Shown here: piece after piece, positions 21,900 to 62,478 of the stretch
Position numbering within the stretch: position 1 is the first letter of the stretch
Layout: each line of letters starts with the position of its first letter
Source: Procambarus clarkii
Taxonomy: Eukaryota > Arthropoda > Malacostraca > Decapoda > Cambaridae
Length of the DNA: 64,000 bases
Direction: 5' to 3'
Assembly: GCF_040958095.1 (NCBI RefSeq)
Contig: NC_091156.1
Coordinates: 22,065,427 to 22,129,426 of the forward strand
Notes under the pieces: model-generated
Told to the model about the DNA's origin: nothing
The model's database searches: none
What the model saw: the letters and a program-made list of their open reading frames with translations, nothing else
Translations under genes and position numbers: made by a program

Positions 21900-22010
21900 C
21901 TCCTTCGTCACAAGATTCTGCGGCTTTTCTAATCTCGGCCTCATTATATTCCAACTCCAGTTTCTCTTTGCTTCTGTCATCGTCGTCGTCTTCCACGATA
22001 GTAGCTGCAG
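21900..22010 (-). other. coding-like edge of the giant array (possible exon remnant)
   Basis: On the minus strand, after the last EDTPSAAA units, the same frame continues as TIVEDDDDDRSKEKLELEY, then NEAEIRKAAESCDEG, before entering the dispersed-repeat fragment. This is non-repetitive, charged and helix-prone, much more protein-like than the serine run read from the plus strand. The continuing frame passes a donor-like CAAGGTAACC. I infer a possible exon end of a gene whose repeat region expanded; no family is recognised. Confidence 0.35.
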
Positions 22011-25000
22011 CAGACGGCGTATCTTCCCCAGCAGCAGCAGACGGGGTATCTTCCCCAGCAGCAGCAGACGGGGTATCTTCCCCAGCAGCAGCAGACGGGG
22101 TATCTTCCCCAGCAGCAGCAGACGGGGTATCTTCCCCAGCAGCAGCAGACGGGGTATCTTCCCCAGCAGCAGCAGACGGGGTATCTTCCCCAGCAGCAGC
22201 AGACGGGGTATCTTCCCCAGCAGCAGCAGACGGGGTATCTTCCCCAGCAGCAGCAGACGGGGTATCTTCCCCAGCAGCAGCAGACGGGGTATCTTCCCCA
22301 GCAGCAGCAGCAGCAGACGGGGTATCTTCCCCAGCAGCAGCAGCAACAGACGGGGTATCTTCCCCAGCAGCAGCTGCAGCAGACGGGGCATCTTCCCCAG
22401 CAGCAGCTGCAGCAGACGGGGTATCTTCCCCAGCAGCAGCAGACGGGGTATCTTCCCCAGCAGCAGCAGCAACAGACGGGGTATCTTCCCCAGCAGCAGC
22501 AGCAGCAGACGGGGTATCTTCCCCAGCAGCAGCAGCAGACGGGGTATCTTCCCCAGCAGCCGCAGACAGGGTATCTTCCCCAGCAGCAGCAGCAACAGAC
22601 GGGGTATCTTCCCCAGCAGCAGCAGCAGCAAACGGGGTATCTTCCCCAGCAGCAGCAGACGGGGTATCTTCCCCAGCAGCAGCAGACGGGGTATCTTCCC
22701 CAGCAGCAGCAGACGGGGTATCTTCCCCAGCAGCAGCAGACGGGGTATCTTCCCCAGCAGCAGCAGCAGCAGACGGGGTATCTTCCCCAGCAGCAGCAGA
22801 CGGGGTATCTTCCCCAGCAGCAGCAGACGGGGTATCTTCCCCAGCAGCAGCAGCAGCAGACGGGGTATCTTCCCCAGCAGCAGCAGCAGCAGACGGGGTA
22901 TCTTCCCCAGCAGCACCAGCAGACGGGGTATCTTCCCCAGCAGCAGCAGCAGACGGGGTATCTTCCCCAGCAGCAGCAGCAGCAGCAGCAGCAGACGGGG
23001 TATCTTCCCCAGCAGCAGCAGACGGGGTATCTTCCCCAGCAGCAGCAGACGGGGTATCTTCCCCAGCAGCAGCAGACGGGGTATCTTCCCCAGCAGCAGC
23101 AGACGGGGTATCTTCCCCAGCAGCAGCAGACGGGGTATCTTCCCCAGCAGCAGCAGACGGGGTATCTTCCCCAGCAGCAGCAGACGGGGTATCTTCCCCA
23201 GCAGCAGCAGACGGGGTATCTTCCCCAGCAGCAGCAGCAGCAGCAGACGGGGTATCTTCCCCAGCAGCAGCAGACGGGGTATCTTCCCCAGCAGCAGCAG
23301 CAGCAGACGGGGTATCTTCCCCAGCAGCACCAGCAGACGGGGTATCTTCCCCAGCAGCAGCAGCAGCAGACGGGGTATCTTCCCCAGCAGCAGCAGCAGC
23401 AGACGGGGTATCTTCCCCAGCAGCAGCAGACGGGCTATCTTCCCCAGCAGCAGCAGACGGGGTATCTTCCCCAGCAGCAGCAGCAGCAGACGGGCTATCT
23501 TCCCCAGCAGCAGCAGCAGCAGACGGGGTATCTTCCCCAGCAGCAGGAGACGGGGTATCTTCCCCAGCAGCAGGAGACGGGGTATCTTCCCCAGCAGCAG
23601 CAGACGGGGTATCTTCCCCAGCAGCAGCAGACGGGGTATCTTCCCCAGCAGCAGCAGACGGGGTATCTTCCCCAGCAGCAGCAGACGAGGTATCTTCCCC
23701 AGCAGCAGCAGACGGGGTATCTTCCCCAGCAGCAGCAGCAGACGGGGTATCTTCCCCAGCAGCAGCAGACGGGGTATCTGCCCCAGCAGCAGCAGACGGA
23801 GTATCTTCCCCAGCAGCAGCAGCAGCAGACGGGGTATCTTCCCCAGCAGCAGCAGCAGCAGACGGGGTATCTTCCCCAGCAGCAGCAGCAGCAGACGGGG
23901 TATCTTCCCCAGCAGCAGCAGCAGCAGCAGACGGGGTATCTTCCCCAACAGCAGCAGCAGCAGACGGGGTATCTTCCCCAGCAGCAGCAGCAGCAGCAGA
24001 CGGGGTATCTTCCCCAACAGCAGCAGCAGACGGGGTATCTTCCACAGCAGCAGCAACAGCAGCAGACGGGGTATCTTCCACAGCAGAAGCAGCAGCAGAC
24101 GGGGTATCTTCCCCAGCAGCAGCAGCAGACGGGGTATCTTCCCCAGCAGCAGCAGCAGACGGGGTATCTTCCACAGCAGCAGCAGCAGCAGACGGGGTAT
24201 CTTCCCCAGCAGCAGCAGCAGACGGGGTATCTTCCCCAGCAGCAGCAGCAGACGGGGTATCTTCCCCAGCAGCAGCAGACGGGGTATCTTCCACAGCAGC
24301 AGCAGACGGGGTATCTTCCACAGCAGCAGCAGACGGGGTATCTTCCCCAGAAGCAGCAGACGGGGTATCTTCCACAGCAGCAGCAGCAGCAACAGACGGG
24401 GTATTTTTCCCAGCAGTAGCAGACGGGGTATCTTCCACAACAGCAGCAGCAGCAGACGGGGTATCTTCCACAACAACAGCAGCAGCAGACGGGGTATCTT
24501 CCCCAGCAGCAGCAGCAGCAGACGGGGTATCTTCCCCAACAGCAGCAGCAGACGGGGTACCTTCCACAGCAGCAGCAACAGCAGCAGACGGGGTATCTTC
24601 CACAGCAGCAGCAGCAGCAGACGGGGTATCTTCCCCAGCAGCAGCAGCAGACGGGGTATCTTCCCCAGCAGCAGCAGACGGGGTATCTTCCCCAGCAGCA
24701 GCAGACGGGGTATCTTCCACAGCAGCAGCAGCAGCAGACGGGGTATCTTCCACAGCAGCAGCAGCAGCAGACGGGGTATCTTCCCCAGCAGCAGCAGAAG
24801 GCGGGGTATCTTCCCCAGCAGCAGCAGCAGACGGGGTATCTTCCCCAGCAGCTGCAGCAGACGGGGTATCTTCCCCAGCAGCAGCAGCAGCAGACGGGGT
24901 ATCTTCCGCAGCAGCAACAGCAGACGGGGTATCTTCCCCAGCAGCAGCAGCAGACGGGGTATCCTCCCCAGCAACAGCAGCAGACGGGGTATCTTCCCCG

Positions 25001-28654: not shown

Positions 28655-31345
28655 TTACCCAGCAGCAGCAGACGGGGTATCTTCCACAGCAGCAGCAGCA
28701 GCAGACGGGGTATCTTCCCCAGCAGCAGCAGCAGACGGGGTATCTTCCCCAGCAGCAGCAGCAGACGGGGTATCTTCCCCAGCAGCAGCAGACGGGGTAT
28801 CTTCCACAGCAGCAGCAGCAGCAGCAGACGGGGTATCTTCCCCAGCAGCAGCAGCAGACGGGGTATCTTCCCCAGCAGCAGCAGCAGACGGGGTATCTTC
28901 CCCAGCAGCAGCAGCAGACGGGGTATCTTCCACAGCAGCAGCAGACGGGGTATCTTCCACAGCAGCAGCAGACGGGGTGTCTTCCCCAGCAGCAGCAGAC
29001 GGGGTATCTTCCACAGCAGCAGCAGCAGCAACAGACGGGGTATCTTTCCCAGCAGTAGCAGACGGGGTATCTTCCACAACAGCAGCAGCAGCAGACGGGG
29101 TATCTTCCACAACAGCAGCAGCAGCAGACGGGGTATCTTCCCCAGCAGCAGCAGCAGCAGCAGCAGACGGGGTATCTTCCCCAACAGCAGCAGCAGACGG
29201 GGTATCTTCCACAGCAGCAGCAACAGCAGCAGACGGGGTATCTTCCACAGCAGCAGCAGCAGCAGACGGGGTATCTTCCCCAGCAGCAGCAGCAGACGGG
29301 GTATCTTCCCCAGCAGCAGCAGCAGACGGGGTATCTTCCCCAGCAGCAGCAGACGGGGTATCTTCCCCAGCAGCAGCAGACGGGGTATCTTCCCCAGCAG
29401 CAGCAGCAGCAGACGGGGTATCTTCCCCAGCAGCAGCAGCAGACGGGGTATCTTCCCCAGCAGCAGCAGCAGACGGGGTATCTTCCCCAGCAGCAGCAGC
29501 AGACGGGGTATCTTCCCCAGCAGCAGTAGCAGCAGACGGGGTATCTTCCCCGGCAGCAGCAGCAGCATACGGGGTATCTTCCCCAGCAGCAGCAGCAGAC
29601 GAAGTATCTTCCCCAGCAGCAGCAGCAGACGGGGTATCTTCCCCAGCAGCAGCAGCAGCAGCAGACGGGGTATCTTCCCCAGCAGCAGCAGCAGCAGACG
29701 GGGTATCTTCCCCAGCAGCAGCAGCAGCAGACGGGGTATCTTCCCCAGCAGCAGCAGCAGCAGCAGACGGGGTATCTTCTCCAGCAGCAGCAGCAGCAGA
29801 CGGCGTATCTTCCCCAGCAGCAGCTCCAGCAGACGGGGTATCTTCCCCAGCAGCAGCAGCAGCAGACGGGGTATCTTCCCCAGCAGCAGCAGCAGCAGAC
29901 GGGGTATCTTCCCCAGCAGCAGCAGCAGCAGACGGGGTATCTTCCCCAGCAGCAGCAGCAGACGGGGTATCTTCCCCAGCAGCAGCAGCAGCAGCAGACG
30001 GGGTATCTTCCCCGGCAGCAGCTGCAGCAGACGGGGTATCTTCCCCAGCAACAGCAGCAGCAGACGGGGTATCTTCCCCAGCAGCAGCAGACGGGGTATC
30101 TTCCCCGGCAGCAGCAGCAGACGGGGTATCTTCCCCAGCAGCAGCAGCAGCAGACGGGGTATCTTCTCAGCAGCAGCAGACGGGGTATCTTCCCCAGCAG
30201 CAGCAGCAGCAGACAGGGTATCTTCCTCAGCAACAGCAGCAGCAGACGGGGTATCTTCCCCAGCAACAGCAGCAGCAGACGGGGTATCTTCCCCAGCAGC
30301 AGCAGACGGGGTATCTTCCCCAGCAGCACCAGCAGCAGACGGGGTATCTTCCACAGCAGCAGCAGCAGCAGACGGGGTATCTTCCCCAGCAGCAGCAGCA
30401 GCAGCAGACGGGGTATCTTCCCCAACAGCAGCAGCAGACGGGGTATCTTCCACAGCAGCAGCAACAGCAGCAGACGGGGTATCTTCCACAGCAGCAGCAG
30501 CAGCAGACGGGGTATCTTCCCCAGCAGCAGCAGCAGACGGGGTATCTTCCCCAGCAGCAGCAGACGGGGTATCTTCCCCAGCAGCAGCAGACGGGGTATC
30601 TTCCACAGCAGCAGCAGCAGCAGCAGACGGGGTATCTTCCACAGCAGCAGCAGCAGCAGACGGGGTATCTTCCCCAGCAGCAGCAGAAGACGGGGTATCT
30701 TCCCCAGCAGCAGCAGCAGACGGGGTATCTTCCCCAGCAGCTGCAGCAGACGGGGTATCTTCCCCAGCAGCAGCAGACGGGGTATCTTCCCCAGCAGCAG
30801 CAGCAGCAGACGGGGTATCTTCCCCAGCAGCAGCAGCAGACGGGGTATCTTCCCCAGCAGCAGCAGCAGCAGACGGGGTATCTTCCCCAGCAGCAGCAGC
30901 AGACGGGGTGTCTTCCCCGGCAGCAGCAGCAGACGGGGTATCTTCCCCAGCAGCAGCAGCAGACGGGGTATCTTCCCCAGCAGCAGCAGCAGACGGGGTA
31001 TCTTCCCCAGCAGCAGCAGCAGACGGGGTATCTTCCCCAGCAGCAGCAGCAGACGGGGTATCTTCCCCAGCAGCAGCAGCAGACGGGGTATCTTCCCAGC
31101 AGCAGCAGCAGCAGACGGGGTATCTTCCCCAGCAGGAGCAGCAGACGGGGTATCTTCCCCAGCAGCAGCAGCAGACGGGGTATCTTCCCCAGCAGCAGCA
31201 GCAGACGGGGTATCTTCCACAGCAGCAGCAGACGGGGTATCTTCCACAGCAGCAGCAGACGGGGTGTCTTCCCCAGCAGCAGCAGACGGGGTATCTTCCA
31301 CAGCAGCAGCAGCAGCAACAGACGGGGTATCTTTCCCAGCAGTAG
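28655..31345. repeat. higher-order block, copy matching 42.2-45.0 kb
   Basis: Marker variants in this block recur in the same order about 13.64-13.66 kb to the right: GGGGTGTCTTCC (28.97 and 42.64 kb), CAGCAGTAGC (29050 and 42712), GGCGTATC beside CAGCTCCAGC (29.80 and 43.46 kb), TCTTCTCAGC (30.16 and 43.82 kb), and a final CAGCAGTAGC (31337 and 44973). This shows a large internal duplication of the array. Confidence 0.75.
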
Positions 31346-31639
31346 CAGACGGGGTATCTTCCACAACAGCAGCAGCAGCAGACGGGGTATCTTCCACAAC
31401 AGCAGCAGCAGCAGACGGGGTATCTTCCCCAGCAGCAGCAGCAGCAGCAGACGGGGTATATTCCCCAACAGCAGCAGCAGACGGGGTATCTTCCACAGCA
31501 GCAGCAACAGCAGCAGACGGGGTATCTTCCACAGCAGCAGCAGCAGCAGACGGGGTATCTTCCCCAGCAGCAGCAGCAGACGGGGTATCTTCCCCAGCAG
31601 CAGCAGCAGACGGGGTATCTTCCCCAGCAGCAGCAGACG

Positions 31640-34600
31640 GGGTATCTTCCCAGCAGCAGCAGACGGGGTATCTTCCCCAGCAGCAGCAGCAGCAGACGGG
31701 GTATCTTCCCCAGCAGCAGCAGCAGACGGGGTATCTTCCAGCAGCAGCAGCAGACGGGGTATCTTCCCCAGCAGCAGCAGCAGACGGGGTATCTTCCCCA
31801 GCAGCGCAGCAGCAGACGGGGTATCTTCCCCAGCAGCAGCAGACGGGGTATCTTCCCCAGCAGCAGAGCAGCAGACGGGGTATCTTCCCCAGCAGCAGCA
31901 GCAGACGGGGTATCTTCCCCAGCAGCAGCAGCAGCAGACGGGGTATCTTCCCCAGCAGCAGCAGCAGACGGGGTATCTTCCCCAGCAGCAGCAGCAGACG
32001 GGGTATCTTCCCCAGCAGCAGCAGCAGACGGGGTATCTTCCCCAGCAGCAGAGCAGCAGACGGGGTATCTTCCCCAGCAGCAGCAGCAGACGGGGTATCT
32101 TCCCCAGCAGCAGCAGCAGACGGTATCTTCCCCAGCAGCAGCAGCAGACGGGGTATCTTCCCCAGCAGCAGCAGCAGCAGACGGGGTATCTTCCCCAGCA
32201 GCAGCAGCAGCAGACGGGGTATCTTCCCCAGCAGCAGCAGCAGCAGACGGGGTATCTTCCCCAGCAGCAGCAGCATCAGCAGCAGCAGACGGGGTATCTT
32301 CTCCAGCAGCAGCAGCAGCAGACGGGGTATCTTCCCCAGCAGCAGCTCAGCAGACGGGGTATCTTCCCCAGCAGCAGCAGCAGCAGACGGGGTATCTTCC
32401 CAGCAGCAGCAGCAGCAGACGGGAGTATCTTCCCCAGCAGCAGCAGCAGCAGCAGACGGGGTATCTTCCCCCAGCAGCAGCAGCAGCAGAGACGGGGTAT
32501 CTTCTCCAGCAGCAGCAGCAGCAGACGGGGTATCTTCCCCAGCAGCAGCTCCAGCAGACGGGTATCTTCCCCAGCAGCAGCAGCAGCAGACGGGGTATCT
32601 TCCCCAGCAGCAGCAGCAGCAGACGGGGTATCTTCCCCAGCAGCAGCAGCAGCAGACGGGGTATCTTCCCCAGCAGCAGCAGCAGACGGGGTATCTTCCC
32701 CAGCAGCAGCAGCAGCAGCAGACGGGGTATCTTCCCCGGCAGCAGCTGCAGCAGACGGGGTATCTTCCCCAGCAACAGCAGCAGCAGACGGGGTATCTTC
32801 CCCAGCAGCAGCAGACGGGGTATCTTCCCGGCAAGCAGCAGCAGACGGGGTATCTTCCCCAAGCAGCAGCAGCAGCAGACGGGGTATCTTCCTCAGCAGC
32901 AGCAGACGGGGTATCTTCCCCCAGCAGCAGCAGCAGCAGACGGGGTATCTTCCTCAGCAACAGCAGCAGCAGACGGGGTATCTTCCCCAGCAACAGCAGC
33001 AGCAGACGGGGTATCTTCCCCAGCAGCAGCAGACGGGGTATCTTCCCCAGCAGCAGCAGCAGCAGACGGGGTATCTTCCACAGCAGCAAGCAGCAGCAGC
33101 AGACGGGGTATCTTCCCCAGCAGCAGCAGCAGCAGCAGACGGGGTATCTTCCCCAACAGCAGCAGCAGACGGGGTATCTTCCACAGCAGCAGCAGCAGCA
33201 GACGGGGTATCTTCCCACAGCAGCAGCAGCAGCAGACGGGGTATCTTCCCCAGCAGCAGCAGCAGACGGGGTATCTTCCCCAGCAGCAGCAGCAGACGGG
33301 TATCTTCCCCAGCAGCAGCAGACGGGGTATCTTCCACAGCAGCAGCAGCAGCAGACGGGGTATCTTCCACAGCAGCAGCAGCAGCAGGCGGGGTATCTTC
33401 CCCAGCAGCAGCAGAAGACGGGGTATCTTCCCCAGCAGCAGCAGCAGACGGGGTATCTTCCCCAGCAGCTGCAGCAGACGGGGTATCTTTCCCAGCAGCA
33501 GCAGACGGGGTATCTTCCCCAGCAGCAGCAGCAGCAGACGGGGTATCTTCCCCAGCAGCAGCAGCAGACGGGGTATCTTCCCCAGCAGCAGCAGCAGCAG
33601 ACGGGGTATCTTCCCCAGCAGCAGCAGCAGACGGGGTATCTTCCCCGGCAGCAGCAGCAGACGGGGTATCTTCCCCAGCAGCAGCAGCAGACGGGGTATC
33701 TTCCCCAGCAGCAGCAGACGGGGTATCTTCCCCAGCAGCAGCAGCAGACGGGGTATCTTCCCCAGCAGCAGCAGCAGACGGGGTATCTTCCCCAGCAGCA
33801 GCAGCAGACGGGGTATCTTCCCCAGCAGCAGCAGCAGACGGAGTATCTTCCCCAGCAGCAGCAGCAGCAGCAGACGGGGTATCTTCCCCAGCAGCAGCAG
33901 CAGCAGACGGGGTATCTTCCCCGGCAGCAGCAGCAGACGGGGTATCTTCCCCAGCAGCAGCAGCAGACGGGGTATCTTCCCCCCAGCAGCAGCAGACGGG
34001 GTATCTTCCCAGCAGCAGCAGCAGACGGGGTATCTTCCCCAGCAGCAGCAGCAGCAGACGGGGTATCTTCCCCAGCAGCAGCAGCAGCAGACGGGGTATC
34101 TTCCCCAGCAGCAGCAGACGGGGTATCTTCCCCAGCAGCAGCAGACGGGTATCTTCCCAGCAGCAGCAGCAGCAGACGGGGTATCTTCCCCAGCAGCAAG
34201 CAGAAGCAGCAGACGGGGTATCTTCCCCAGCAGCAGCAGCAGCAGACGGGTATCTTCCCCAGCAGCAGCTGCAGCAGACGGGGTATCTTCCCCAGCAGCA
34301 GCAGCAGACGGGGTATCTTCCCCAGCAGCAGCAGCAGCAGACGGGGTATCTTCCCCAGCAGCAGCAGCAGACGGGGTATCTTCCCCAGCAGCAGCAGCAG
34401 CAGACGGGGTATCTTCCCCAGCAGCAGCAGCAGACGGGGTAGTCTTCCCCCGGCAAGCAGCAGCAGACGGGGTATCTTCCCCAGCAGCAGCAGCAGACGG
34501 GGTATCTTCCCCAGCAGCAGCAGCAGCAGACGGGGTATCTTCCCCAGCAGCAGCAGCAGACGGGTATCTTCCCCAACAGCAGCAGACGGGGTATCTTCCA

Positions 34601-37600
34601 CAGCAGCCAGCAGCAGCAGCAGACGGGGTATCTTCCCACGCAGGAGCAGCAGACGGGGTATCTTCCCCAGCAGCAGAGCAGCAGACGGGGTATCTTCCCC
34701 AGCAGCAGCAGCAGACGGGGTATCTTCCCAGCAGCAGCAGCAGACGGGGTATCTTCCACAGCAGCAGCAGACGGGGTATCTTCCCCAGCAGCAGCAGAGG
34801 GGGTATCTTCCCCAGCAGCAGCAGCAGCAGACGGGGTATCTTCCCCAGCAGCAGCAGACGGGGTATCTTCCCCAGCAGCAGCAGCAGACGGGGTATCTTC
34901 CCCAGCAGCAGCAGCAGACGGGGTATCTTCCCCAGCAGCAGCAGCAGCAGCAGACGGGGTATCTTCCCCAGCAGCAGCAGCAGACGGGGTATCTTCCCAG
35001 CAGCAGCCAGCAGCAGACGGGGTATCTTCCCAGCAGCAGCAGCAGCAGCGGGGTATCTTCCCCAGCAGCAGCAGCAGACGGGGTATCTTCCCCAGCAGCA
35101 GCAGCAGACGGGGTATCTTCCCCAGCAGCAGCAGACGGGGTATCTTCCCCAGCAGCAGCAGACGGGGTATCTTCCCAGCAGCAGCAGCAGCAGACGGGGT
35201 ATCTTCCCCAGCAGCAGCAGCAGACGGGGTATCTTCCCCAGCAGCAGCAGCAGACGGGGTATCTTCCCAGCAGCAGCAGCAGACGGGGTATCTTCCCAGC
35301 AGCTGCAGCAGACGGGGTATCTTCCCCAGCAGCAGCAGACGGGGTATCTTCCCCAGCAGCAGCAGCAGCAGACGGGGTATCTTCCCAGCAGCAGCAGCAG
35401 ACGGGGTATCTTCCCCAGCAGCAGCAGCAGCAGACGGGGTATCTTCCCCAGCAGCAGCAGCAGACGGGGTATCTTCCCCGGCAGCAGCAGCAGACGGGGT
35501 ATCTTCCCCAGCAGCAGCAGCAGACGGGGTATCTTCCCCAGCAGCAGTAGCAGCAGACGGGGTATCTTCCCCGGCAGCAGCAGCAGCAGACGGGGTATCT
35601 TCCCCAGCAGCAGCAGCAGACGAGGTAGCTTCCCCAGCAGCAGCAGCAGACGGGGTATCTTCCCCAGCAGCAGCAGCAGCAGGACGGGGTATCTTCCCAG
35701 CAGCAGCAGCAGCAGACGGGTATCTTCCCCAGCAGCAGCAGCAGCAGACGGGGTATCTTCCCAGCAGGCAAGCAGCAGCAGCATACGGGGTATCTTCTCC
35801 AGCAGCAGCAGCAGCAGACGGGGTATCTTCCCCAGCAGCAGCTCCAGCAGACGGGGTATCTTCCCCAGCAGCAGCAGCAGCAGACGGGTATCTTCCCCAG
35901 CAGCAGCAGCAGCAGACGGGGTATCTTCCCCAGCAGCAGCAGCAGCAGACGGGGTATCTTCCCCAGCAGCAGCAGCAGCAGCAGACGGGGTATCTTCTCC
36001 AGCAGCAGCAGCAGCAGACGGGGTATCTTCCCCAGCAGCAGCTCCAGCAGACGGGTATCTTCCCCAGCAGCAGCAGCAGCAGACGGGGTATCTTCCCCAG
36101 CAGCAGCAGCAGCAGACGGGGTATCTTCCCCAGCAGCAGCAGCAGCAGACGGGGTATCTTCCCCAGCAGCAAGCAGCAGACGGGGTATCTTCCCCAGCAG
36201 CAGCAGCAAGCAGCAGACGGGGTATCTTCCCCGGCAGCAGCTGCAGCAGACGGGGTATCTTCCCAGCAACAGCAGCAGCAGACGGGGTATCTTCCCCAGC
36301 AGCAGCAGACGGGGTATCTTCCCCGGCAGCAGCAGCAGACGGGGTATCTTCCCCAGCAGCAGCAGCAGCAGACGGGGTATCTTCTCAGCAGCAGCAGACG
36401 GGGTATCTTCCCCAGCAGCAGCAGCAGCAGACGGGGTATCTTCCTCAGCAACAGCAGCAGCAGACGGGGTATCTTCCCCAGCAACAGCAGCAGCAGACGG
36501 GGTATCTTCCCCAGCAGCAGCAGACGGGGTATCTTCCCCAGCAGCAGCAGCAGCAGACGGGGTATCTTCCACAGCAGCAGCAGCAGCAGCAGACGGGGTA
36601 TCTTCCCCAGCAGCAGCAGCAGCAGCAGACGGGGTATCTTCCCCAACAGCAGCAGCAGACGGGGTATCTTCCACAGCAGCAGCAACAGCAGCAGACGGGG
36701 TATCTTCCACAGCAGCAGCAGCAGCAGACGGGGTATCTTCCACAGCAGCAGCAGCAGCAGACGGGGTATCTTCCCCAGCAGCAGCAGCAGCAGACGGGGT
36801 ATCTTCCCCAGCAGCAGCAGACGGGGTATCTTCCCCAGCAGCAGCAGACGGGGTATCTTCCACAGCAGCAGCAGCAGCAGACGGGGTATCTTCCACAGCA
36901 GCAGCAGCAGCAGGCGGGGTATCTTCCCCAGCAGCAGCAGAAGACGGGTATCTTCCCCAGCAGCAGCAGCAGACGGGGTATCTTCCCCAGCAGCTGCAGC
37001 AGACGGGGTATCTTTCCCAGCAGCAGCAAGACGGGGTATCTTCCCCAGCAGCAGCAGCAGCAGACGGGGTATCTTCCCCCAGCAAGCAGCAGCAGACGGG
37101 GTATCTTCCCCAGCAGCAGCAGCAGCAGACGGGGTATCTTCCCCAGCAGCAGCAGCAGACGGGTATCTTCCCCGGCAGCAGCAGCAGACGGGGTATCTTC
37201 CCCAGCAGCAGCAGCAGACGGGGTATCTTCCCCAGCAGCAGCAGACGGGGTATCTTCCCCAGCAGCAGCAGCAGACGGAGGTATCTTCCCAGCAGCAGCA
37301 GCAGACGAAGTATCTTCCCCAGCAGCAGCAGCAGACGGGGTATCTTCCCCGGCAGCAGCAGCAGACGGAGTAATCTTCCCCAGCAGCAGCAGCAGCAGCA
37401 GACGGGGTAATCTTCCCCAGCAGCAGCAGCAGCAGACGGGGTATCTTCCCCGGCAGCAGCAGCAGCAGACGGGGTATCTTCCCCAGCAGCAGCAGCAGAC
37501 GGGGGTATCTTCCCCAGCAGCAGCCAGACGGGGTATCTTCCCCAGCAGCAGCAAGACGGGGTATCTTCCCAGCAGCAGCTGCAGCAGACGGGGTATCTTC

Positions 37601-42225: not shown

Positions 42226-44982
42226 CCACAGCAGCAGCAGCAGCAGACGGGGTATCTTCCCCAGCAGCAGCAGCAGACGGGGTATCTTCCCCAGCAGCAG
42301 CAGCAGACGGGGTATCTTCCCCAGCAGCAGCAGACGGGGTATCTTCCACAGCAGCAGCAGCAGACGGGGTATCTTCCCCAGCAGCAGCAGCAGACGGGGT
42401 ATCTTCCCCAGCAGCAGCAGCAGACGGGGTATCTTCCCCAGCAGCAGCAGCAGACGGGGTATCTTCCACAGCAGCAGCAGCAGCAGCAGACGGGGTATCT
42501 TCCCCAGCAGCAGCAGCAGACGGGGTATCTTCCCCAGCAGCAGCAGCAGACGGGGTATCTTCCCCAGCAGCAGCAGCAGACGGGGTATCTTCCACAGCAG
42601 CAGCAGACGGGGTATCTTCCACAGCAGCAGCAGACGGGGTGTCTTCCCCAGCAGCAGCAGACGGGGTATCTTCCACAGCAGCAGCAGCAGCAACAGACGG
42701 GGTATCTTTCCCAGCAGTAGCAGACGGGGTATCTTCCACAACAGCAGCAGCAGCAGACGGGGTATCTTCCACAACAGCAGCAGCAGCAGACGGGGTATCT
42801 TCCCCAGCAGCAGCAGCAGCAGCAGACGGGGTATCTTCCCCAACAGCAGCAGCAGACGGGGTATCTTCCACAGCAGCAGCAACAGCAGCAGACGGGGTAT
42901 CTTCCACAGCAGCAGCAGCAGCAGACGGGGTATCTTCCCCAGCAGCAGCAGCAGACGGGGTATCTTCCCCAGCAGCAGCAGCAGACGGGGTATCTTCCCC
43001 AGCAGAAGCAGACGGGGTATCTTCCCCAGCAGCAGCAGACGGGGTATCTTCCCCAGCAGCAGCAGCAGCAGACGGGGTATCTTCCCCAGCAGCAGCAGCA
43101 GACGGGGTATCTTCCCCAGCAGCAGCAGCAGACGGGGTATCTTCCCCAGCAGCAGCAGCAGACGGGGTATCTTCCCCAGCAGCAGTAGCAGCAGACGGGG
43201 TATCTTCCCCGGCAGCAGCAGCAGCATACGGGGTATCTTCCCCAGCAGCAGCAGCAGACGAAGTATCTTCCCCAGCAGCAGCAGCAGACGGGGTATCTTC
43301 CCCAGCAGCAGCAGCAGCAGCAGACGGGGTATCTTCCCCAGCAGCAGCAGCAGCAGACGGGGTATCTTCCCCAGCAGCAGCAGCAGCAGACGGGGTATCT
43401 TCCCCAGCAGCAGCAGCAGCAGCAGACGGGGTATCTTCTCCAGCAGCAGCAGCAGCAGACGGCGTATCTTCCCCAGCAGCAGCTCCAGCAGACGGGGTAT
43501 CTTCCCCAGCAGCAGCAGCAGCAGACGGGGTATCTTCCCCAGCAGCAGCAGCAGCAGACGGGGTATCTTCCCCAGCAGCAGCAGCAGCAGACGGGGTATC
43601 TTCCCCAGCAGCAGCAGCAGACGGGGTATCTTCCCCAGCAGCAGCAGCAGCAGCAGACGGGGTATCTTCCCCGGCAGCAGCTGCAGCAGACGGGGTATCT
43701 TCCCCAGCAACAGCAGCAGCAGACGGGGTATCTTCCCCAGCAGCAGCAGACGGGGTATCTTCCCCGGCAGCAGCAGCAGACGGGGTATCTTCCCCAGCAG
43801 CAGCAGCAGCAGACGGGGTATCTTCTCAGCAGCAGCAGACGGGGTATCTTCCCCAGCAGCAGCAGCAGCAGACAGGCTATCTTCCTCAGCAACAGCAGCA
43901 GCAGACGGGGTATCTTCCCCAGCAACAGCAGCAGCAGACGGGGTATCTTCCCCAGCAGCAGCAGACGGGGTATCTTCCCCAGCAGCACCAGCAGCAGACG
44001 GGGTATCTTCCACAGCAGCAGCAGCAGCAGACGGGGTATCTTCCCCAGCAGCAGCAGCAGCAGCAGACGGGGTATCTTCCCCAACAGCAGCAGCAGACGG
44101 GGTATCTTCCACAGCAGCAGCAACAGCAGCAGACGGGGTATCTTCCACAGCAGCAGCAGCAGCAGACGGGGTATCTTCCCCAGCAGCAGCAGCAGACGGG
44201 GTATCTTCCCCAGCAGCAGCAGACGGGGTATCTTCCCCAGCAGCAGCAGACGGGGTATCTTCCACAGCAGCAGCAGCAGCAGCAGACGGGGTATCTTCCA
44301 CAGCAGCAGCAGCAGCAGACGGGGTATCTTCCCCAGCAGCAGCAGAAGACGGGGTATCTTCCCCAGCAGCAGCAGCAGACGGGGTATCTTCCCCAGCAGC
44401 TGCAGCAGACGGGGTATCTTCCCCAGCAGCAGCAGACGGGGTATCTTCCCCAGCAGCAGCAGCAGCAGACGGGGTATCTTCCCCAGCAGCAGCAGCAGAC
44501 GGGGTATCTTCCCCAGCAGCAGCAGCAGCAGACGGGGTATCTTCCCCAGCAGCAGCAGCAGCAGACGGGGTGTCTTCCCCGGCAGCAGCAGCAGACGGGG
44601 TATCTTCCCCAGCAGCAGCAGCAGACGGGGTATCTTCCCCAGCAGCAGCAGCAGCAGACGGGGTATCTTCCCCAGCAGCAGCAGCAGACGGGGTATCTTC
44701 CCCAGCAGCAGCAGACGGGGTATCTTCCACAGCAGCAGCAGCAGCAGCAGACGGGGTATCTTCCCCAGCAGGAGCAGCAGACGGGGTATCTTCCCCAGCA
44801 GCAGCAGCAGACGGGGTATCTTCCCCAGCAGCAGCAGCAGACGGGGTATCTTCCACAGCAGCAGCAGACGGGGTATCTTCCACAGCAGCAGCAGACGGGG
44901 TGTCTTCCCCAGCAGCAGCAGACGGGGTATCTTCCACAGCAGCAGCAGCAGCAACAGACGGGGTATCTTTCCCAGCAGTAGC
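42226..44982. repeat. higher-order block, copy matching 28.7-31.3 kb
   Basis: Second copy of the marker-ordered block described at 28655-31345. The small drift in offset (13,662 falling to 13,636) means only a few CAG triplets or units were gained or lost between copies. Confidence 0.75.
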
Positions 44983-47900
44983 AGACGGGGTATCTTCCAC
45001 AACAGCAGCAGCAGCAGACGGGGTATCTTCCACAACAGCAGCAGCAGCAGACGGGGTATCTTCCCCAGCAGCAGCAGCAGCAGCAGACGGGGTATATTCC
45101 CCAACAGCAGCAGCAGACGGGGTATCTTCCACAGCAGCAGCAACAGCAGCAGACGGGGTATCTTCCACAGCAGCAGCAGCAGCAGACGGGGTATCTTCCC
45201 CAGCAGCAGCAGCAGACGGGGTATCTTCCCCAGCAGCAGCAGCAGACGGGGTATCTTCCCCAGCAGCAGCAGACGGGGTATCTTCCCCAGCAGCAGCAGA
45301 CGGGGTATCTTCCCCAGCAGCAGCAGCAGCAGACGGGGTATCTTCCCCAGCAGCAGCAGCAGACGGGGTATCTTCCCCAGCAGCAGCAGCAGACGGGGTA
45401 TCTTCCCCAGCAGCAGCAGCAGACGGGGTATCTTCCCCAGCAGCTGCAGCAGACGGGGTATCTTCCCCAGCAGCAGCAGACGGGGTATCTTCCCCAGCAG
45501 CAGCAGCAGCAGACGGGGTATCTTCCCCAGCAGCAGCAGCAGACGGGGTATCTTCCCCAGCAGCAGCAGCAGCAGACGGGGTATCTTCCCCAGCAGCAGC
45601 AGCAGACGGGGTATCTTCCCCGGCAGCAGCAGCAGACGGGGTATCTTCCCCAGCAGCAGCAGCAGACGGGGTATCTTCCCCAGCAGCAGTAGCAGCAGAC
45701 GGGGTATCTTCCCCGGCAGCAGCAGCAGCATACGGGGTATCTTCCCCAGCAGCAGCAGCAGACGAAGTATCTTCCCCAGCAGCAGCAGCAGACGGGGTAT
45801 CTTCCCCAGCAGCAGCAGCAGCAGACGGGGTATCTTCCCCAGCAGCAGCAGCAGCAGACGGGGTATCTTCCCCAGCAGCAGCAGCAGCAGACGGGGTATC
45901 TTCCCCAGCAGCAGCAGCAGCAGCAGACGGGGTATCTTCTCCAGCAGCAGCAGCAGCAGACGGGGTATCTTCCCCAGCAGCAGCTCCAGCAGACGGGGTA
46001 TCTTCCCCAGCAGCAGCAGCAGCAGACGGGGTATCTTCCCCAGCAGCAGCAGCAGCAGACGGGGTATCTTCCCCAGCAGCAGCAGCAGCAGACGGGGTAT
46101 CTTCCCCAGCAGCAGCAGCAGACGGGGTATCTTCCCCAGCAGCAGCAGCAGCAGCAGACGGGGTATCTTCCCCGGCAGCAGCTGCAACAGACGGGGTATC
46201 TTCCCCAGCAACAGCAGCAGCAGACGGGGTATCTTCCCCAGCAGCAGCAGACGGGGTATCTTCCCCGGCAGCAGCAGCAGACGGGGTATCTTCCCCAGCA
46301 GCAGCAGCAGCAGACGGGGTATCTTCTCAGCAGCAGCAGACGGGGTATCTTCCCCAGCAGCAGCAGCAGCAGACGGGGTATCTTCCTCAGCAACAGCAGC
46401 AGCAGACGAGGGTATCTTCCCCAGCAACAGCAGCAGCAGACGGGGTATCTTCCCCAGCAACAGCAGCAGCAGACGGGGTATCTTCCCCAGCAGCAGCAGA
46501 CGGGGTATCTTCCCCAGCAGCAGCAGCAGCAGACGGGGTATCTTCCACAGCAGCAGCAGCAGCAGCAGACGGGGTATCTTCCCCAGCAGCAGCAGCAGCA
46601 GCAGACGGGGTATCTTCCCCAACAGCAGCAGCAGACGGGGTATCTTCCACAGCAGCAGCAACAGCAGCAGACGGGGTATCTTCCACAGCAGCAGCAGCAG
46701 CAGACGGGGTATCTTCCCCAGCAGCAGCAGCAGACGGGGTATCTTCCCCAGCAGCAGCAGACGGGGTATCTTCCCCAGCAGCAGCAGACGGGGTATCTTC
46801 CACAGCAGCAGCAGCAGCAGACGGGGTATCTTCCACAGCAGCAGCAGCAGCAGACGGGGTATCTTCCCCAGCAGCAGCAGAAGACGGGGTATCTTCCCCA
46901 GCAGCAGCAGCAGACGGGGTATCTTCCCCAGCAGCTGCAGCAGACGGGGTATCTTCCCCAGCAGCAGCAGACGGGGTATCTTCCCCAGCAGCAGCAGCAG
47001 CAGACGGGGTATCTTCCCCAGCAGCAGCAGCAGACGGGGTATCTTCCCCAGCAGCAGCAGCAGCAGACGGGGTATCTTCCCCAGCAGCAGCAGCAGACGG
47101 GGTATCTTCCCCGGCAGCAGCAGCAGACGGGGTATCTTCCCCAGCAGCAGCAGCAGACGGGGTATCTTCCCCAGCAGCAGCAGACGGGGTATCTTCCCCA
47201 GCAGCAGCAGCAGACGGGGTATCTTCCCCAGCAGCAGCAGCAGACGAAGTATCTTCCCCAGCAGCAGCAGCAGACGGGGTATCTTCCCCGGCAGCAGCAG
47301 CAGACGGAGTATCTTCCCCAGCAGCAGCAGCAGCAGCAGACGGGGTATCTTCCCCAGCAGCAGCAGCAGCAGACGGGGTATCTTCCCCGGCAGCAGCAGC
47401 AGCAGACGGGGTATCTTCCCCAGCAGCAGCAGCAGACGGGGTATCTTCCCCAGCAGCAGCAGACGGGGTATCTTCCCCAGCAGCAGCAGACGGGGTATCT
47501 TCCCCAGCAGCAGCTGCAGCAGACGGGGTATCTTCCCCAGCAGCAGCAGCAGCAGACGGGGTATCTTCCCCAGCAGCAGCAGACGGGGTATCTTCCCCAG
47601 CAGCAGCAGACGGAGTATCTTTCCCAGCAGCAGCAGCAGCAGACGGGGTATCTTCCCCAGCAGCAGCAGCAGCAGCAGACGGGGTATCTTCCCCAGCAGC
47701 AGCAGCAGCAGACGGGGTATCTTCCCCAGCAGCAGCTGCAGCAGACGGGGTATCTTCCCCAGCAGCAGCAGCAGCAGACGGGGTATCTTCCCCAGCAGCA
47801 GCAGACGGGGTATCTTCCCCAGCAGCAGCAGACGGAGTATCTTCCCCAGCAGCAGCAGCAGCAGACGGGGTATCTTCCCCAGCAGCAGCAGCAGCAGACG

Positions 47901-50900
47901 GGGTGTCTTCCCCAGCAGCAGCAGCAGCAGCAGACGGGGTATCTTCCCCAGCAGCAGCAGCAGCAGCAGACGGGGTATCTTCCCCAACAGCAGCAGCAGA
48001 CGGGGTATCTTCCACAGCAGCAGCAACAGCAGCAGACGGGGTATCTTCCACAGCAGCAGCAGCAGCAGACGGGGTATCTTCCCCAGCAGCAGCAGCAGAC
48101 GGGGTATCTTCCCCAGCAGCAGCAGACGGGGTATCTTCCCCAGCAGCAGCAGACGGGGTATCTTCCCCAGCAGCAGCAGCAGCAGACGGGGTATCTTCCC
48201 CAGCAGCAGCAGCAGACGGGGTATCTTCCCCAGCAGCAGCAGCAGCAGACGGGGTATCTTCCCCAGCAGCAGCAGCAGACGGGGTATCTTCCCCAGCAGC
48301 TGCAGCAGACGGGGTATCTTCCCCAGCAGCAGCAGACGGAGTATCTTCCCCAGCAGCACCAGCAGCAGACGGGGTATCTTCCCCAGCAGCAGCAGCAGAC
48401 GGGGTATCTTCCCCAGCAGCAGCAGCAGCAGACGGGGTATCTTCCCCAGCAGCAGCAGCAGACGGGGTATCTTCCCCGGCAGCAGCAGCAGACGGGGTAT
48501 CTTCCCCAGCAGCAGCAGCAGACGGGGTATCTTCCCCAGCAGCAGCAGACGGGGTATCTTCCCCAGCAGCAGCAGCAGACGGGGTATCTTCCCCAGCAGC
48601 AGCAGCAGACGAAGTATCTTCCCCAGCAGCAGCAGCAGACGGGGTATCTTCCCCGGCAGCAGCAGCAGACGGAGTATCTTCCCCAGCAGCAGCAGCAGCA
48701 GCAGACGGGGTATCTTCCCCAGCAGCAGCAGCAGCAGACGGGGTATCTTCCCCGGCAGCAGCAGCAGCAGACGGGGTATCTTCCCCAGCAGCAGCAGCAG
48801 ACGGGGTATCTTCCCCAGCAGCAGCAGACGGGGTATCTTCCCCAGCAGCAGCAGACGGGGTATCTTCCCCAGCAGCAGCTGCAGCAGACGGGGTATCTTC
48901 CCCAGCAGCAGCAGCAGCAGACGGGGTATCTACCCCAGCAGCAGCAGACGGGGTATCTTCCCCAGCAGCAGCAGACGGAGTATCTTTCCCAGCAGCAGCA
49001 GCAGCAGACGGGGTATCTTCCCCAGCAGCAGCAGCAGCAGCAGACGGGGTATCTTCCCCAGCAGCAGCAGCAGCAGACGGGGTATCTTCCCCAGCAGCAG
49101 CTGCAGCAGACGGGGTATCTTCCCCAGCAGCAGCAGCAGCAGACGGGGTATCTTCCCCAGCAGCAGCAGACGGGGTATCTTCCCCAGCAGCAGCAGACGG
49201 AGTATCTTCCCCAGCAGCAGCAGCAGCAGACGGGGTATCTTCCCCAGCAGCAGCAGCAGCAGACGGGGTATCTTCCCCAGCAGCAGCAGCAGACGGGGTA
49301 TCTTCCCCAGCAGCAGCAGCAGACGGGGTATCTTCCACAGCAGCAGCAACAGCAGCAGACGGGGTATCTTCCACAGCAGCAGCAGCAGCAGACGGGGTAT
49401 CTTCCCCAGCAGCAGCAGCAGACGGGGTATCTTCCCCAGCAGCAGCAGACGGGGTATCTTCCCCAGCAGCAGCACACGGGGTATCTTCCCCAGCAGCAGC
49501 AGCAGCAGACGGGGTATCTTCCCCAGCAGCAGCAGCAGACGGGGTATCTTCCCCAGCAGCAGCAGCAGACGGGGTATCTTCCCCAGCAGCAGCAGCAGAC
49601 GGGGTATCTTCCCCAGCAGCTGCAGCAGACGGGGTATCTTCCCCAGCAGCAGCAGACGGGGTATCTTCCCCAGCAGCACCAGCAGCAGACGGGGTATCTT
49701 CCCCAGCAGCAGCAGCAGACGGGGTATCTTCCCCAGCAGCAGCAGCAGCAGACGGGGTATCTTCCCCAGCAGCAGCAGCAGACGGGGTATCTTCCCCGGC
49801 AGCAGCAGCAGACGGGGTATCTTCCCCAGCAGCAGCAGCAGACGGGGTATCTTCCCCAGCAGCAGTAGCAGCAGACGGGGTATCTTCCCCGGAAGCAGCA
49901 GCAGCATACGGGGTATCTTCCCCAGCAGCAGCAGCAGACGAAGTATCTTCCCCAGCAGCAGCAGCAGACGGGGTATCTTCCCCAGCAGCAGCAGCAGCAG
50001 ACGGGGTATCTTCCCCAGCAGCAGCAGCAGCAGACAGGGTATCATCCCCAGCAGCAGCAGCAGCAGACGGGGTATCTTCCCCAGCAGCAGCAGCAGCAGC
50101 AGACGGGGTATCTTCTCCAGCAGCAGCAGCAGCAGACGGGGTATCTTCCCCAGCAGCAGCTCCAGCAGACGGGGTATCTTCCCCAGCAGCAGCAGCAGCA
50201 GACGGGGTATCTTCCCCAGCAGCAGCAGCAGCAGACGGGGTATCTTCCCCAGCAGCAGCAGCAGCAGACGGGGTATCTTCCCCAGCAGCAGCAGCAGACG
50301 GGGTATCTTCCCCAGCAGCAGCAGCAGCAGCAGACGGGGTATCTTCCCCGGCAGCAGCTGCAGCAGACGGGGTATCTTCCCCAGCAACAGCAGCAGCAGA
50401 CGGGGTATCTTCCCCAGCAGCAGCAGACGGGGTATCTTCCCCGGCAGCAGCAGCAGACGGGGTATCTTCCCCAGCAGCAGCAGCAGCAGACGGGGTATCT
50501 TCTCAGCAGCAGCAGACGGGGTATCTTCCCCAGCAGCAGCAGCAGCAGCAGACGGGGTATCTTCCTCAGCAACAGCAGCAGCAGACGGGGTATCTTCCCC
50601 AGCAACAGCAGCAGCAGACGGGGTATCTTCCCCAGCAGCAGCAGACGGGGTATCTTCCCCAGCAGCAGCAGCAGCAGACGGGGTATCTTCCCCAGCAGCA
50701 GCAGCAGCAGCAGCAGACGGGGTATCTTCCCCAACAGCAGCAGCAGACGGGGTATCTTCCACAGCAGCAGCAACAGCAGCAGACGGGGTATCTTCCACAG
50801 CAGCAGCAGCAGCAGACGGGGTATCTTCCCCAGCAGCAGCAGCAGACGGGGTATCTTCCCCAGCAGCAGCAGACGGGGTATCTTCCCCAGCAGCAGCAGA

Positions 50901-53900
50901 CGGGGTATCTTCCACAGCAGCAGCAGCAGCAGACGGGGTATCTTCCACAGCAGCAGCAGCAGCAGACGGGGTATCTTCCCCAGCAGCAGCAGAAGACGGG
51001 GTATCTTCCCCAGCAGCAGCAGCAGACGGGGTATCTTCCCCAGCAGCTGCAGCAGACGGGGTATCTTCCCCAGCAGCAGCAGACGGGGTATCTTCCCCAG
51101 CAGCAGCAGCAGCAGACGGGGTATCTTCCCCAGCAGCAGCAGCAGACGGGGTATCTTCCCCAGCAGCAGCAGCAGCAGACGGGGTATCTTCCCCAGCAGC
51201 AGCAGCAGACGGGGTATCTTCCCCGGCAGCAGCAGCAGACGGGGTATCTTCCCCAGCAGCAGCAGCAGACGGGGTATCTTCCCCAGCAGCAGCAGACGGG
51301 GTATCTTCCCCAGCAGCAGCAGCAGACGGGGTATCTTCCCCAGCAGCAGCAGCAGACGAAGTATCTTCCCCAGCAGCAGCAGCAGACGGGGTATCTTCCC
51401 CGGCAGCAGCAGCAGACGGAGTATCTTCCCCAGCAGCAGCAGCAGCAGCAGACGGGGTATCTTCCCCAGCAGCAGCAGCAGCAGACGGGGTATCTTCCCC
51501 GGCAGCAGCAGCAGCAGACGGGGTATCTTCCCCAGCAGCAGCAGCAGACGGGGTATCTTCCCCAGCAGCAGCAGACGGGGTATCTTCCCCAGCAGCAGCA
51601 GACGGGGTATCTTCCCCGGCAGCAGCAGCAGACGGGGTATCTTCCCCAGCAGCAGCAGCAGCAGACGGGGTATCTTCTCAGCAGCAGCAGACGGGGTATC
51701 TTCCCCAGCAGCAGCAGCAGCAGACGGGGTATCTTCCTCAGCAACAGCAGCAGCAGACGGGGTATCTTCCCCAGCAACAGCAGCAGCAGACGGGGTATCT
51801 TCCCCAGCAGCAGCAGACGGGGTATCTTCCCCAGCAGCAGCAGCAGCAGACGGGGTATCTTCCCCAGCAGCAGCAGCAGCAGACGGGGTATCTTCCCCAA
51901 CAGCAGCAGCAGACGGGGTATCTTCCACAGCAGCAGCAACAGCAGCAGACGGGGTATCTTCCACAGCAGCAGCAGCAGCAGACGGGGTATCTTCCCCAGC
52001 AGCAGCAGCAGACGGGGTATCTTCCCCAGCAGCAGCAGACGGGGTATCTTCCCCAGCAGCAGCAGACGGGGTATCTTCCACAGCAGCAGCAGCAGCAGAC
52101 GGGGTATCTTCCACAGCAGCAGCAGCAGCAGACGGGGTATCTTCCCCAGCAGCAGCAGCAGACGGGGTATCTTCCCCAGCAGCAGCAGCAGACGGGGAAT
52201 CTTCCCCAGCAGCAGCAGCAGACGGGGTATCTTCCCCAGCAGCAGCAGCAGCAGCAGACGGGGTATCTTCCCCAACAGCAGCAGCAGACGGGGTATCTTC
52301 CACAGCAGCAGCAACAGCAGCAGACGGGGTATCTTCCACAGCAGCAGCAGCAGCAGACGGGGTATCTTCCCCAGCAGCAGCAGCAGACGGGGTATCTTCC
52401 CCAGCAGCAGCAGACGGGGTATCTTCCCCAGCAGCAGCAGACGGGGTATCTTCCACAGCAGCAGCAGCAGCAGACGGGGTATCTTCCCCAGCAGCAGCAG
52501 CAGACGGGGTATCTTCCCCAGCAGCAGCAGCAGACGGGGTATCTTCCCCAGCAGCAGCAGACGGGGTATCTTCCACAGCAGCAGCAGCAGCAGCAGACGG
52601 GGTATCTTCCCCAGCAGCAGCAGCAGACGGGGTATCTTCCCCAGCAGCAGAAGCAGACGGGGTATCTTCCCCAGCAGCAGCAGCAGACGGGGTATCTTCC
52701 ACAGCAGCAGCAGACGGGGTATCTTCCACAGCAGCAGCAGACGGGGTGTCTTCCCCAGCAGCAGCAGACGGGGTATCTTCCACAGCAGCAGCAGCAGCAA
52801 CAGACGGGGTATCTTTCCCAGCAGTAGCAGACGGGGTATCTTCCACAACAGCAGCAGCAGCAGACGGGGTATCTTCCACAACAGCAGCAGCAGCAGACGG
52901 GGTATCTTCCCCAGCAGCAGCAGCAGCAGCAGACGGGGTATCTTCCCCAACAGCAGCAGCAGACGGGGTATCTTCCACAGCAGCAGCAACAGCAGCAGAC
53001 GGGGTATCTTCCACAGCAGCAGCAGCAGCAGACGGGGTATCTTCCCCAGCAGCAGCAGCAGACGGGGTATCTTCCCCAGCAGCAGCAGACGGGGTATCTT
53101 CCCCAGCAGCAGCAGACGGGGTATCTTCCCCAGCAGCAGCAGACGGGGTATCTTCCCCAGCAGCAGCAGCAGCAGACGGGGTATCTTCCCCAGCAGCAGC
53201 AGCAGCAGACGGGGTATCTTCCCCAGCAGCAGCAGCAGACGGGGTATCTTCCCCAGCAGCAGCAGACGGGGTATCTTCCCCAGCAGCAGCAGCAGACGGG
53301 GTTTCTTCCCCAGCAGCAGCAGCAGCAGCAGACGGGGTATCTTCCCCGGCAGCAGCTGCAGCAGACGGGGTATCTTCCCCAGCAACAGCAGCAGCAGACG
53401 GAGTATCTTCCCCAGCAGCAGCAGACGGGGTATCTTCCCCGGCAGCAGCAGCAGACGGGGTATCTTCCCCAGCAGCAGCAGCAGCAGACGGGGTATCTTC
53501 TCAGCAGCAGCAGACGGGGTATCTTCCCCAGCAGCAGCAGCAGCAGACGGGGTATCTTCCTCAGCAACAGCAGCAGCAGACGGGGTATCTTCCCCAGCAA
53601 CAGCAGCAGCAGACGGGGTATCTTCCCCAGCAGCAGCAGACGGGGTATCTTCCCCAGCAGCAGCAGCAGCAGACGGGGTATCTTCCACAGCAGTAACAGA
53701 CGGGGTATCTTCCACAGCAGCAGCAGACGGGGTATCTTCCCCAGCAGCAGCAGACTGGGTATCTTCCCCAGCAGCAGCAGCAGCAGACGGGGTATCTTCC
53801 CCAGCAGCAGCAGCAGCAGACGGGGTATCTTCCCCAGCAACAGCAGCAGCAGACGGGGTATCTTCCCCAGCAGCAGCAGCAGACGGGGTATCTTCCCCAG

Positions 53901-56844: not shown

Positions 56845-56875
<31 letters not shown>

Positions 56876-60510: not shown

Positions 60511-60541
<31 letters not shown>

Positions 60542-62240
60542 ACGGGGTATCTTCCACAGCAGCAGCTGCAGACGGGGTATCTTCCCCAGCAGCAGCAACA
60601 GATGGGGTATCTTCCACAGCAGCAGCAGCAGACGGGGTATCTTCCCCAGCAGCAGCAACAGATGGGGTATCTTCCCCAGCAGCAGCAGCAGACGGGGTAT
60701 CTTCCACAGCAGCAGCAGCAGCAAACGGGGTATCTTCCACAGCAGCAGCAGCAGACGGGGTATCTTCCCCAGCAGCAGCAGCAGCAGACGGGGTATCTTC
60801 CACAACAGCAGCAGCAGACGGGGTATCTTCCACAGCAGCAGCAGCAGACGGGGTATCTTCCACAGCAGCAGCAGCAGACGGGGTATCTTCCCCAGCAGCA
60901 GCAGCAGCAGACGGGGTATCTTCCACAGCAGCAGCAGCAGACGCGGTATCTTCCACAGCAGCAGCAGCAGCAGACGGGGTATCTTCCACAGCAGCAGCAG
61001 CAGCAGACGGGGTATCTTCCACAGCAGCAGCAGCAGCAGCAGACGGGGTATCTTCCACAGCAGCAGCAGCAGACGGGGTATCTTCCCCAGCAGCAGCAAC
61101 AGATGGGGTATCTTCCACAGCAGCAGCAGCAGACGGGGTATCTTCCCCAGCAGCAGCAACAGATGGGGTATCTTCCCCAGCAGCAGCAGCAGACGGGGTA
61201 TCTTCTCCAGCAGTAGCAGCAGCAGCAGCAGGAGCAGACGGGGTATCTTCCACAGCAGCAGCAGCAGCAGACGGGGTATCTTCCACAGCAGCAACAGACG
61301 GGGTATCTTCCCCAGCAGCACCAGCAGACGGGGTATCTTCCCCAGCAGCAGCAGCAGTAGACGGGGTATCTTCCCCAGCAGCAGCAGCAGCAGACGGGGT
61401 ATCTTCCCCAGCAGCAGCAGCAGCAGACGGGGTATCTTCCACAGCAGCAGCAGCAACAGACGGGGTATCTTCTCCAGCAGCAGCAGCAGCAACAGACGGG
61501 GTATCTTCTCCAGCAGCAGCAGCAGCAGACGGGGTATCTTCCACAACAGCAGCAACAGACGGGGTATCTTCCCCAGTAGCAGCAGCAACAGACGGGGTAT
61601 CTTCCACAACAACAGCAACAGACGGGGTATCTTCCCCAGCAGCAGCAGCAACAGACGGGGTATCTTCCTCAACAGCAGCAACAGACGGGGTATCTTCCAC
61701 AACAGCAGCAACAGACGGGGGTATCTTTCACAGCAGCAGCAGCAGCAACAGACGGGGTATCTTCCACAGCAGCAGCAGCAGACGGGGTATCTTCCACAGC
61801 AGCAGCAGACGGGGTATCTTCCACAGCAGCAGCAGCAGACGGGGTATCTTCCACAGCAGCAGCAGCAACAGACGGGGTATCTTTCACAACAGCAGCAACA
61901 GACGGGGTATCTTCCACAACAGCAGCAACAGACGGGGTATCTTCCACAACAGCAGCAACAGACGGGGTATCTTCCACAGCAGCAGCAGCAGCAACAGACG
62001 GGGTATCTTCCACAGCAGCAGCAGCAGACGGGGTATCTTCCACAGCAGCAGCAGCAGACGGGGTATCTTCCACAGCAGCAGCAGCAGCAGCAGACGGGGT
62101 ATCTTCCCCAGCAGCAGCAGACGGGGTATCTTCCACAGCAGCAGCAGCAACAGACGGGGTATCTTCCACAACAGCAGCAACAGACGGGGTATCTTCCACA
62201 ACAGCAGCAACAGACGGGGTATCTTCCACAGCAGCAGCAG
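58671..62240. repeat. 3.5-kb tandem duplication in the array, right copy
   Basis: Right partner of 55180-58670. The variable offset reflects differences in CAG number and a few whole units, so the duplication is recent relative to the array but not identical. Confidence 0.85.
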
Positions 62241-62478
62241 CAACAGACGGGGTATCTTCCACAACAGCAGCAACAGACGGGGTATCTTCCACAACAGCAG
62301 CAACAGACGGGGTATCTTCCACAGCAGCAGCAGCAACAGACGGGGTATCTTCTCCAGCAGCAGCAGCAGACGGGGTATCTTCCACAACAGCAGCAAGAGA
62401 CGGGGTATCTTCCACAGCAGCAGCAGAAACAGGCGGGGTATCGTCCACAACAACAGCAGCAGCGACAGGTCCAACAGT

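Follow-up and report, generated by a model that had tools for sequence, protein, structure and literature searches.

The stretch analysed here is a 64,000-nt piece of the Procambarus clarkii genome (C7:22065427-22129426), which we call the window. It holds a tandem array of 1,307 units at positions 22003..62463. We found that this array lies in one frame between two C-terminal parts of a protein that belongs to a dispersed gene family. The array is very probably a minisatellite grown within a partial copy of a mobile-element-like, multi-copy gene, in which an in-frame tail repeat was amplified at one locus. An earlier reading of the window from its letters alone (the sequence-only reading) had described the array and named it, if transcribed, a candidate for repeat-associated non-ATG translation. 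The existence of the array is confirmed by Tandem Repeats Finder (TRF) and by decomposition into units. However, the production of several peptides does not follow from the confirmed array.

The array and its unit

TRF reports ~1,298 copies of a 30/33-bp unit at 22003-62463, and a cyclic profile alignment resolves the 1,307 units into 204 kinds. Each unit consists of the core ACGGGGTATCTTCCC and (CAG)n, and its minus strand reads VEDTPSAAA or GEDTPSAAA. Most units (1,205 of 1,307) have a length of 27 (n=232), 30 (n=434), 33 (n=426) or 36 bp (n=113). The sequence-only reading had described the repeat unit correctly. Its figure of ~1,400 units is somewhat high compared to the 1,307 decomposed. 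The CAG tracts are split by the 15-bp core; no long pure CAG/CTG tract was found in the array, and the rows of 100% pure CAG that TRF lists are only 9 copies long. In literature searches, which covered paper listings but no repeat library, no report of this unit turned up.

Both edges of the array belong to one gene family

The minus-strand EDTPSAAA frame extends beyond the array at both ends, where it becomes protein-like. The edge peptide on the right (5′) side is KLAQTLQERAIVTLIISPENNATPTYSPSHGVFRHSSPRMARPSVAVNDKDAGSTVGP and that on the left (3′) side is TIVEDDDDDRSKEKLELEYNEAEIRKAAES, the latter followed by a dispersed repeat. Both are in the EDTPSAAA frame. By tblastn and a genome search, the right edge (62460..62640, minus strand) is a fragment of a family gene that corresponds to residues ~211-270 of a protein of 337 amino acids (aa) encoded in locus L031. 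By DNA alignment and tblastn, the left edge (21913..22002, minus strand) is a C-terminal fragment of the same family gene, and stops ~five codons short of the family's stop codon. The right edge has 81.8% DNA identity to L031 and to a second locus, L029, over 181 bp. For the left edge, the corresponding value is 85.6% over 90 bp, and identity to a third locus, L030, is 86.7%. One L031 protein is aligned by both edges, from residue 211 by the right edge and up to residue 335 by the left. Among the matches listed, the commonest lengths of the family's open frames are 329 and 337 aa.

Given that the EDTPSAAA frame runs into one gene family at both ends, the array unit probably stems from coding sequence, and its triplet register was probably inherited in part. 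The sequence-only reading had described this frame, but missed its continuation into gene fragments on the two sides.

The gene copy is interrupted on either side of these fragments. In place of the gene's end is a dispersed repeat (21834..21903; 80% identity to part of locus L039), which we take to resemble a short interspersed element (SINE). Its peptide part matches many loci in the assembly. On the 5′ side, the gene is cut by a 19-bp minisatellite detected with TRF (62642..64000), which runs 4,032 bp past the window (L035:1-4032). The edge peptides have no Pfam match, and a PDB search, made with the right edge alone, gave one weak match (E 0.098).

A probable seed repeat occurs in other family copies

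We paired right-edge and left-edge matches by contig and strand within 100 kb. Among the matches listed, 74 of 92 right-edge matches pair with a left-edge match. The spacing between the edges is 218-286 bp in 70 of these 74 pairs (26 at 258 bp, 34 at 282 bp) and 40,614 bp in the window. The other outlying pairs have spacings of 476 bp (C3, locus L012), 6,397 bp and 89,507 bp. The difference between 258 and 282 bp is one 24-bp unit, and in the sequence a VEDTTSVA-type repeat is correspondingly absent or present. A short tandem seed is therefore present at the corresponding place in other family copies, and the VEDTPSAAA unit of the array occupies the place and frame of this 24-bp tail repeat. 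We infer that the array descends from the 24-bp seed, with which its position, frame, sequence and order fit.

This constitutes a before-and-after case, in which ~70 family matches have the 24-bp repeat in one or two units and one has ~1,300 units. Since the family copies keep the seed while one locus holds ~1,300 units, it is possible to trace how the array was born: from which seed, in which frame and by which steps of growth. On C19 (L032-L034), a 5,260-aa open frame was considered as another expanded copy and rejected, as it is mostly a run of N in an element copy. The element gene copy in L012, where the edges are 476 bp apart, contains an insert (L012:1687-1849) that is 90-94% like a 158-bp repeat of the window (19853-20698).

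The dispersed family

L031 has IAP-like genes, for two BIR proteins and for one with a RING domain, beside genes for three mutually related proteins and one more open reading frame (ORF). The Pfam matches are to BIR (E 6.5e-17 and 4e-12) and RING (E 1.2e-12). Two of the three BIR matches in L031 are above the Pfam cut-off, and the third scores 20.5 bits vs 22.9. The related proteins are 23-51% identical to the first of them, and have relatives in L039. L029 and L030 have a gene layout like that of L031. In a further locus, L038, one related gene is interrupted, and the RING part lies outside the fetched stretch. A second set appears at about 61-65% identity in a search with residues 1-210, among the 150 candidates scored.

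Inverted arms made of ~215-bp repeats are present in L031 (291 and 237 nt) and in L029 (130 nt). As fetched, L030 (AT runs only) and L038 have no such arms. The family proteins scanned with Pfam include no transposase. On the strength of its copy number and inverted arms, we call the family mobile-element-like. The three related proteins have no Pfam match above cut-off and no credible PDB match. An IMG/VR scan with one of them found no relative, and the best PHROGs match among five element proteins has E 0.0078. A presumed likeness of the related proteins to macro domains did not appear in the Pfam or PDB searches.

The array is confined to one locus and changes at two scales

We searched the whole assembly (4.03 Gb, 2,308 contigs) for the unit. 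An exact 25-mer occurs 676 times, and all 676 occurrences are in the window. Allowing up to 3 mismatches, a 24-mer gives 1,237 matches (1,235 forward, 2 reverse), of which 1,234 are in the window; the backward sequence, used as a control, gives 7. No other array of the unit was seen in the assembly, only three scattered near-matches. The array is thus a single-locus repeat, and not yet an abundant satellite.

Exact repeated blocks of at least 8 units number 65, and the longest has 37 units at an offset of 9,855 bp. Blocks that comprise at least 3 unit kinds include 570 of the 1,307 units. One copied block (28792..31000) has its sister 13.66 kb away (42454..44660, end approximate). Up to 31.0 kb, the sisters have 2,139 matches, 6 mismatches, 5 triplet gaps and no other gaps, and are 99.7% alike. 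Because CAG-tract length varies and blocks are duplicated, the array changes at two scales, that of the CAG tract and that of blocks with tens of units. The CCA and CAA variants are most frequent in the right 5.5 kb, which is consistent with the right end being an older edge.

Outside 31-41 kb, 969 of 982 units have a length divisible by 3 (inside, 256 of 325), which bears out the whole-triplet change in unit length claimed by the sequence-only reading. The stretch at 31001..41000 contains 92 of the 105 indel events, most of which alter one base within a run of C or G, or add an A. In an alignment of 28.8-33.2 kb to the sister from 42.45 kb, non-triplet gaps start only past 31.0 kb. Local consensus error is the probable explanation for this density of indels.

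We suggest that the array arose as follows. A diverged family copy would have carried the seed, a 24-bp in-frame coding repeat in one or two units, and this repeat would have gained CAG triplets. Slippage in the CAG tracts may then have expanded it, with unit length changing in steps of 3. Further growth could have come from unequal exchange, or from repair-based copying, of blocks that span tens of units. A unit length divisible by three would persist because a coding seed was altered by whole CAGs. The gene copy would by now be a truncated relic between the 19-bp minisatellite and the SINE-like repeat. If the array is now non-coding, as we propose, frameshifts could spread through it freely.

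Six open reading frames

The openness of all six frames over long distances, which the sequence-only reading put forward, is real. The longest open runs over the array are 5,610 aa on the plus strand and 3,583 aa on the minus strand. Stops per fixed frame in 22005-62480 number 13, 14 and 10 (plus) and 12, 22 and 17 (minus). As the typical array unit is free of stops whatever the phase, long open runs in all six frames would be expected by default. Such openness is not rare, since by chance it holds for 5.7% of random 30-bp units and for 21.6% at the array's composition, and since a separate array of a 30-bp unit in the window (8255-9825, 52 copies) also has a unit open in six frames. It is therefore weak evidence. 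The six open frames look like a by-product of the array's origin, and not like a sign of protein production. A coding seed together with CAG slippage can yield both six open frames and triplet-only change without selection. The caution of the sequence-only reading that triplet-only change is no proof of coding is accordingly upheld.

Alternative explanations

The array could be a giant coding exon of a living, domesticated gene whose minus-strand product is a protein of EDTPSAAA repeats. The 19-bp array would then lie in an intron, and further exons at a distance. We consider this very unlikely. Such a gene would agree with both edges being open in the repeat's frame, with a rate of nonsynonymous substitution (dN) below the synonymous rate (dS) at both edges, and with a minus frame that is open from 32346 to 21844 (3,500 aa). 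However, translation from the 5′ edge ends after 339 aa, the first 16 of which come from the 19-bp array, and the frame is not kept through the array, as frameshifts have spread. One 26-bp frame-shifting unit is present in nine copies within 30154..53513 (starts at 30154, 36372, 40642, 41810, 43813, 46314, 50490, 51665 and 53488). An extra G at 61717, near the 5′ edge, shifts the EDTPSAAA frame and recurs at 58138 in identical context, and another frameshift variant occurs twice, at 56045 and 59648, again in identical contexts. We also examined 82 rare units that have a one-step commoner parent. Their substitutions are distributed by phase as 30/25/27, and in none of the six frames is there an excess of synonymous changes; the counts are within chance, for example 23 synonymous changes in the EDTPSAAA frame vs 21.0 expected. 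Residues 1-210 of the family protein have no match on C7 among the 150 listed of 2,053 candidates, and element proteins have no match in L035-L037 beside the window. The spread frameshifts, the unfound residues 1-210 and the lack of frame bias in synonymous change together argue against present coding.

Some observations weigh against an array that grew from the seed and no longer codes. Eighteen of the 92 right-edge matches have no left-edge partner, and no intermediate between seed and array was found. The edges are free of stops, with dN and dS of 0.195 and 0.264 (right) and of 0.121 and 0.422 (left) over few sites; this suggests past coding, and perhaps not only past. A poor copy of residues 1-210 could hide beyond the 150 candidates scored. 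Raw substitutions by phase are 106/232/545, an excess at third bases of the glutamine (Gln) frame, which is mostly due to two widespread variants (CCC>CCA, 266; CAG>CAA, 221). Changes that create a stop in the Gln frame number 2 vs 9.1 +/- 2.4 expected under a simple null. Context-dependent mutation, with C-to-T rarer in GCAG, may explain this deficit. The Gln frame is closed by stops adjoining both array ends, and two kinds of unit that contain a TAG have multiplied, to nine and seven copies.

An explanation slightly less probable still is a transcribed CAG/CTG-rich array from which several peptides would be made by repeat-associated non-ATG translation. This would suit the CAG-rich strand and the long open frames in six phases. 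The predicted fold of ten units, at -0.397 kcal/mol per base, is close to that of pure CAG of the same length (-0.401), and the minus strand is predicted to reach -0.421 vs -0.482 for CUG. However, these predicted folds are modest when compared with shuffled sequences (-107.1 vs -96.2 +/- 6.0 for the plus strand, and -113.6 vs -111.2 +/- 5.7 for the minus strand). The shortness of the pure CAG rows, the frameshift variants spread through the array and the absence of a synonymous excess in any frame also speak against it. We judge it just as improbable that the relic gene is still transcribed and that the products of the array are repeat proteins of very large size or a number of peptides in different frames. 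If true, this would be a natural, non-disease counterpart of repeat-expansion translation from one mobile-element-derived locus, and the Gln-frame stop deficit would be a first trace of repeat translation. An independent origin of the array, followed by its landing in a gene fragment, is the least probable explanation of all. The region is indeed rich in unrelated minisatellites, with TRF rows covering 51,901 of the 64,000 window bases. However, the array sits at the family's related in-frame 24-bp repeat, and the gene resumes past it in order and in frame. Less easily set aside, though still unlikely, is that the array's length is in part an artefact of assembly, through mis-joined reads or blocks counted twice. 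The dense single-base indels at 31-41 kb and the near-identity of the sister blocks could reflect such errors, but unit strings vary along the array, with distinct variants towards the right end, and block offsets are many, not one. An artefact of this kind would alter the length of the array, not its origin.

The surrounding window

Crayfish are described as rich in minisatellites (PMC13130569), and the window is a minisatellite-dense region with many unrelated units. The 19-bp type occurs at three places in it (6618-6823, 7456-7716 and 62642-64000). To the right of the window, an array of the 31-bp type extends over at least 12.6 kb (L035:7140 to L036:9900). An ORF at 10066-10590 on the plus strand has a weak protein-kinase-like match (Pkinase, E 0.0003) that is below the Pfam cut-off. 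The window contains no known RNA or tRNA at Rfam gathering scores or by ARAGORN.

Comparison with known systems

CAG/CTG expansions undergo repeat-associated non-ATG translation. These systems share CAG-richness and many open frames with the array, but in the array the CAG tracts are short and split by the 15-bp core. Coding variable number tandem repeats, such as mucin repeats, are in-frame and rich in Pro, Ser, Thr and Ala. The array is like them in having an in-frame repeat rich in these residues, but its frame is broken by spread frameshifts and its gene is truncated.

Nimaviruses carry BIR/RING and macro-domain proteins according to one paper (PMC7016691), and a second describes BIR genes in endogenous nimaviruses of crustaceans (PMC10871703). 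BIR and RING proteins are thus common to nimaviruses and the L031-type family. By contrast, the copies of the family that we saw form a much smaller unit, and the likeness is one of gene set.

Compared to satellites derived from mobile elements, the array has the junction to a dispersed family, but is not present at many loci. The TIR-220 satellite of Drosophila virilis derives from tandem repeats internal to the Tetris element (PMC4079207), and Lathyrus sativus has retrotransposon-derived satellites (PMC7004042). As these two accounts present them, such satellites have in common with the array that a short tandem repeat of a dispersed element was expanded to great length. They differ in that the array has its seed in a protein-coding tail, keeps the triplet register and is found at one locus. 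The Tetris repeats are located in the inverted termini, unlike the array. The expansion of element-internal repeats into satellites is therefore already known, and the array is a single-locus example of it that stands out by its size, by having a coding seed and by the before-and-after record it offers.

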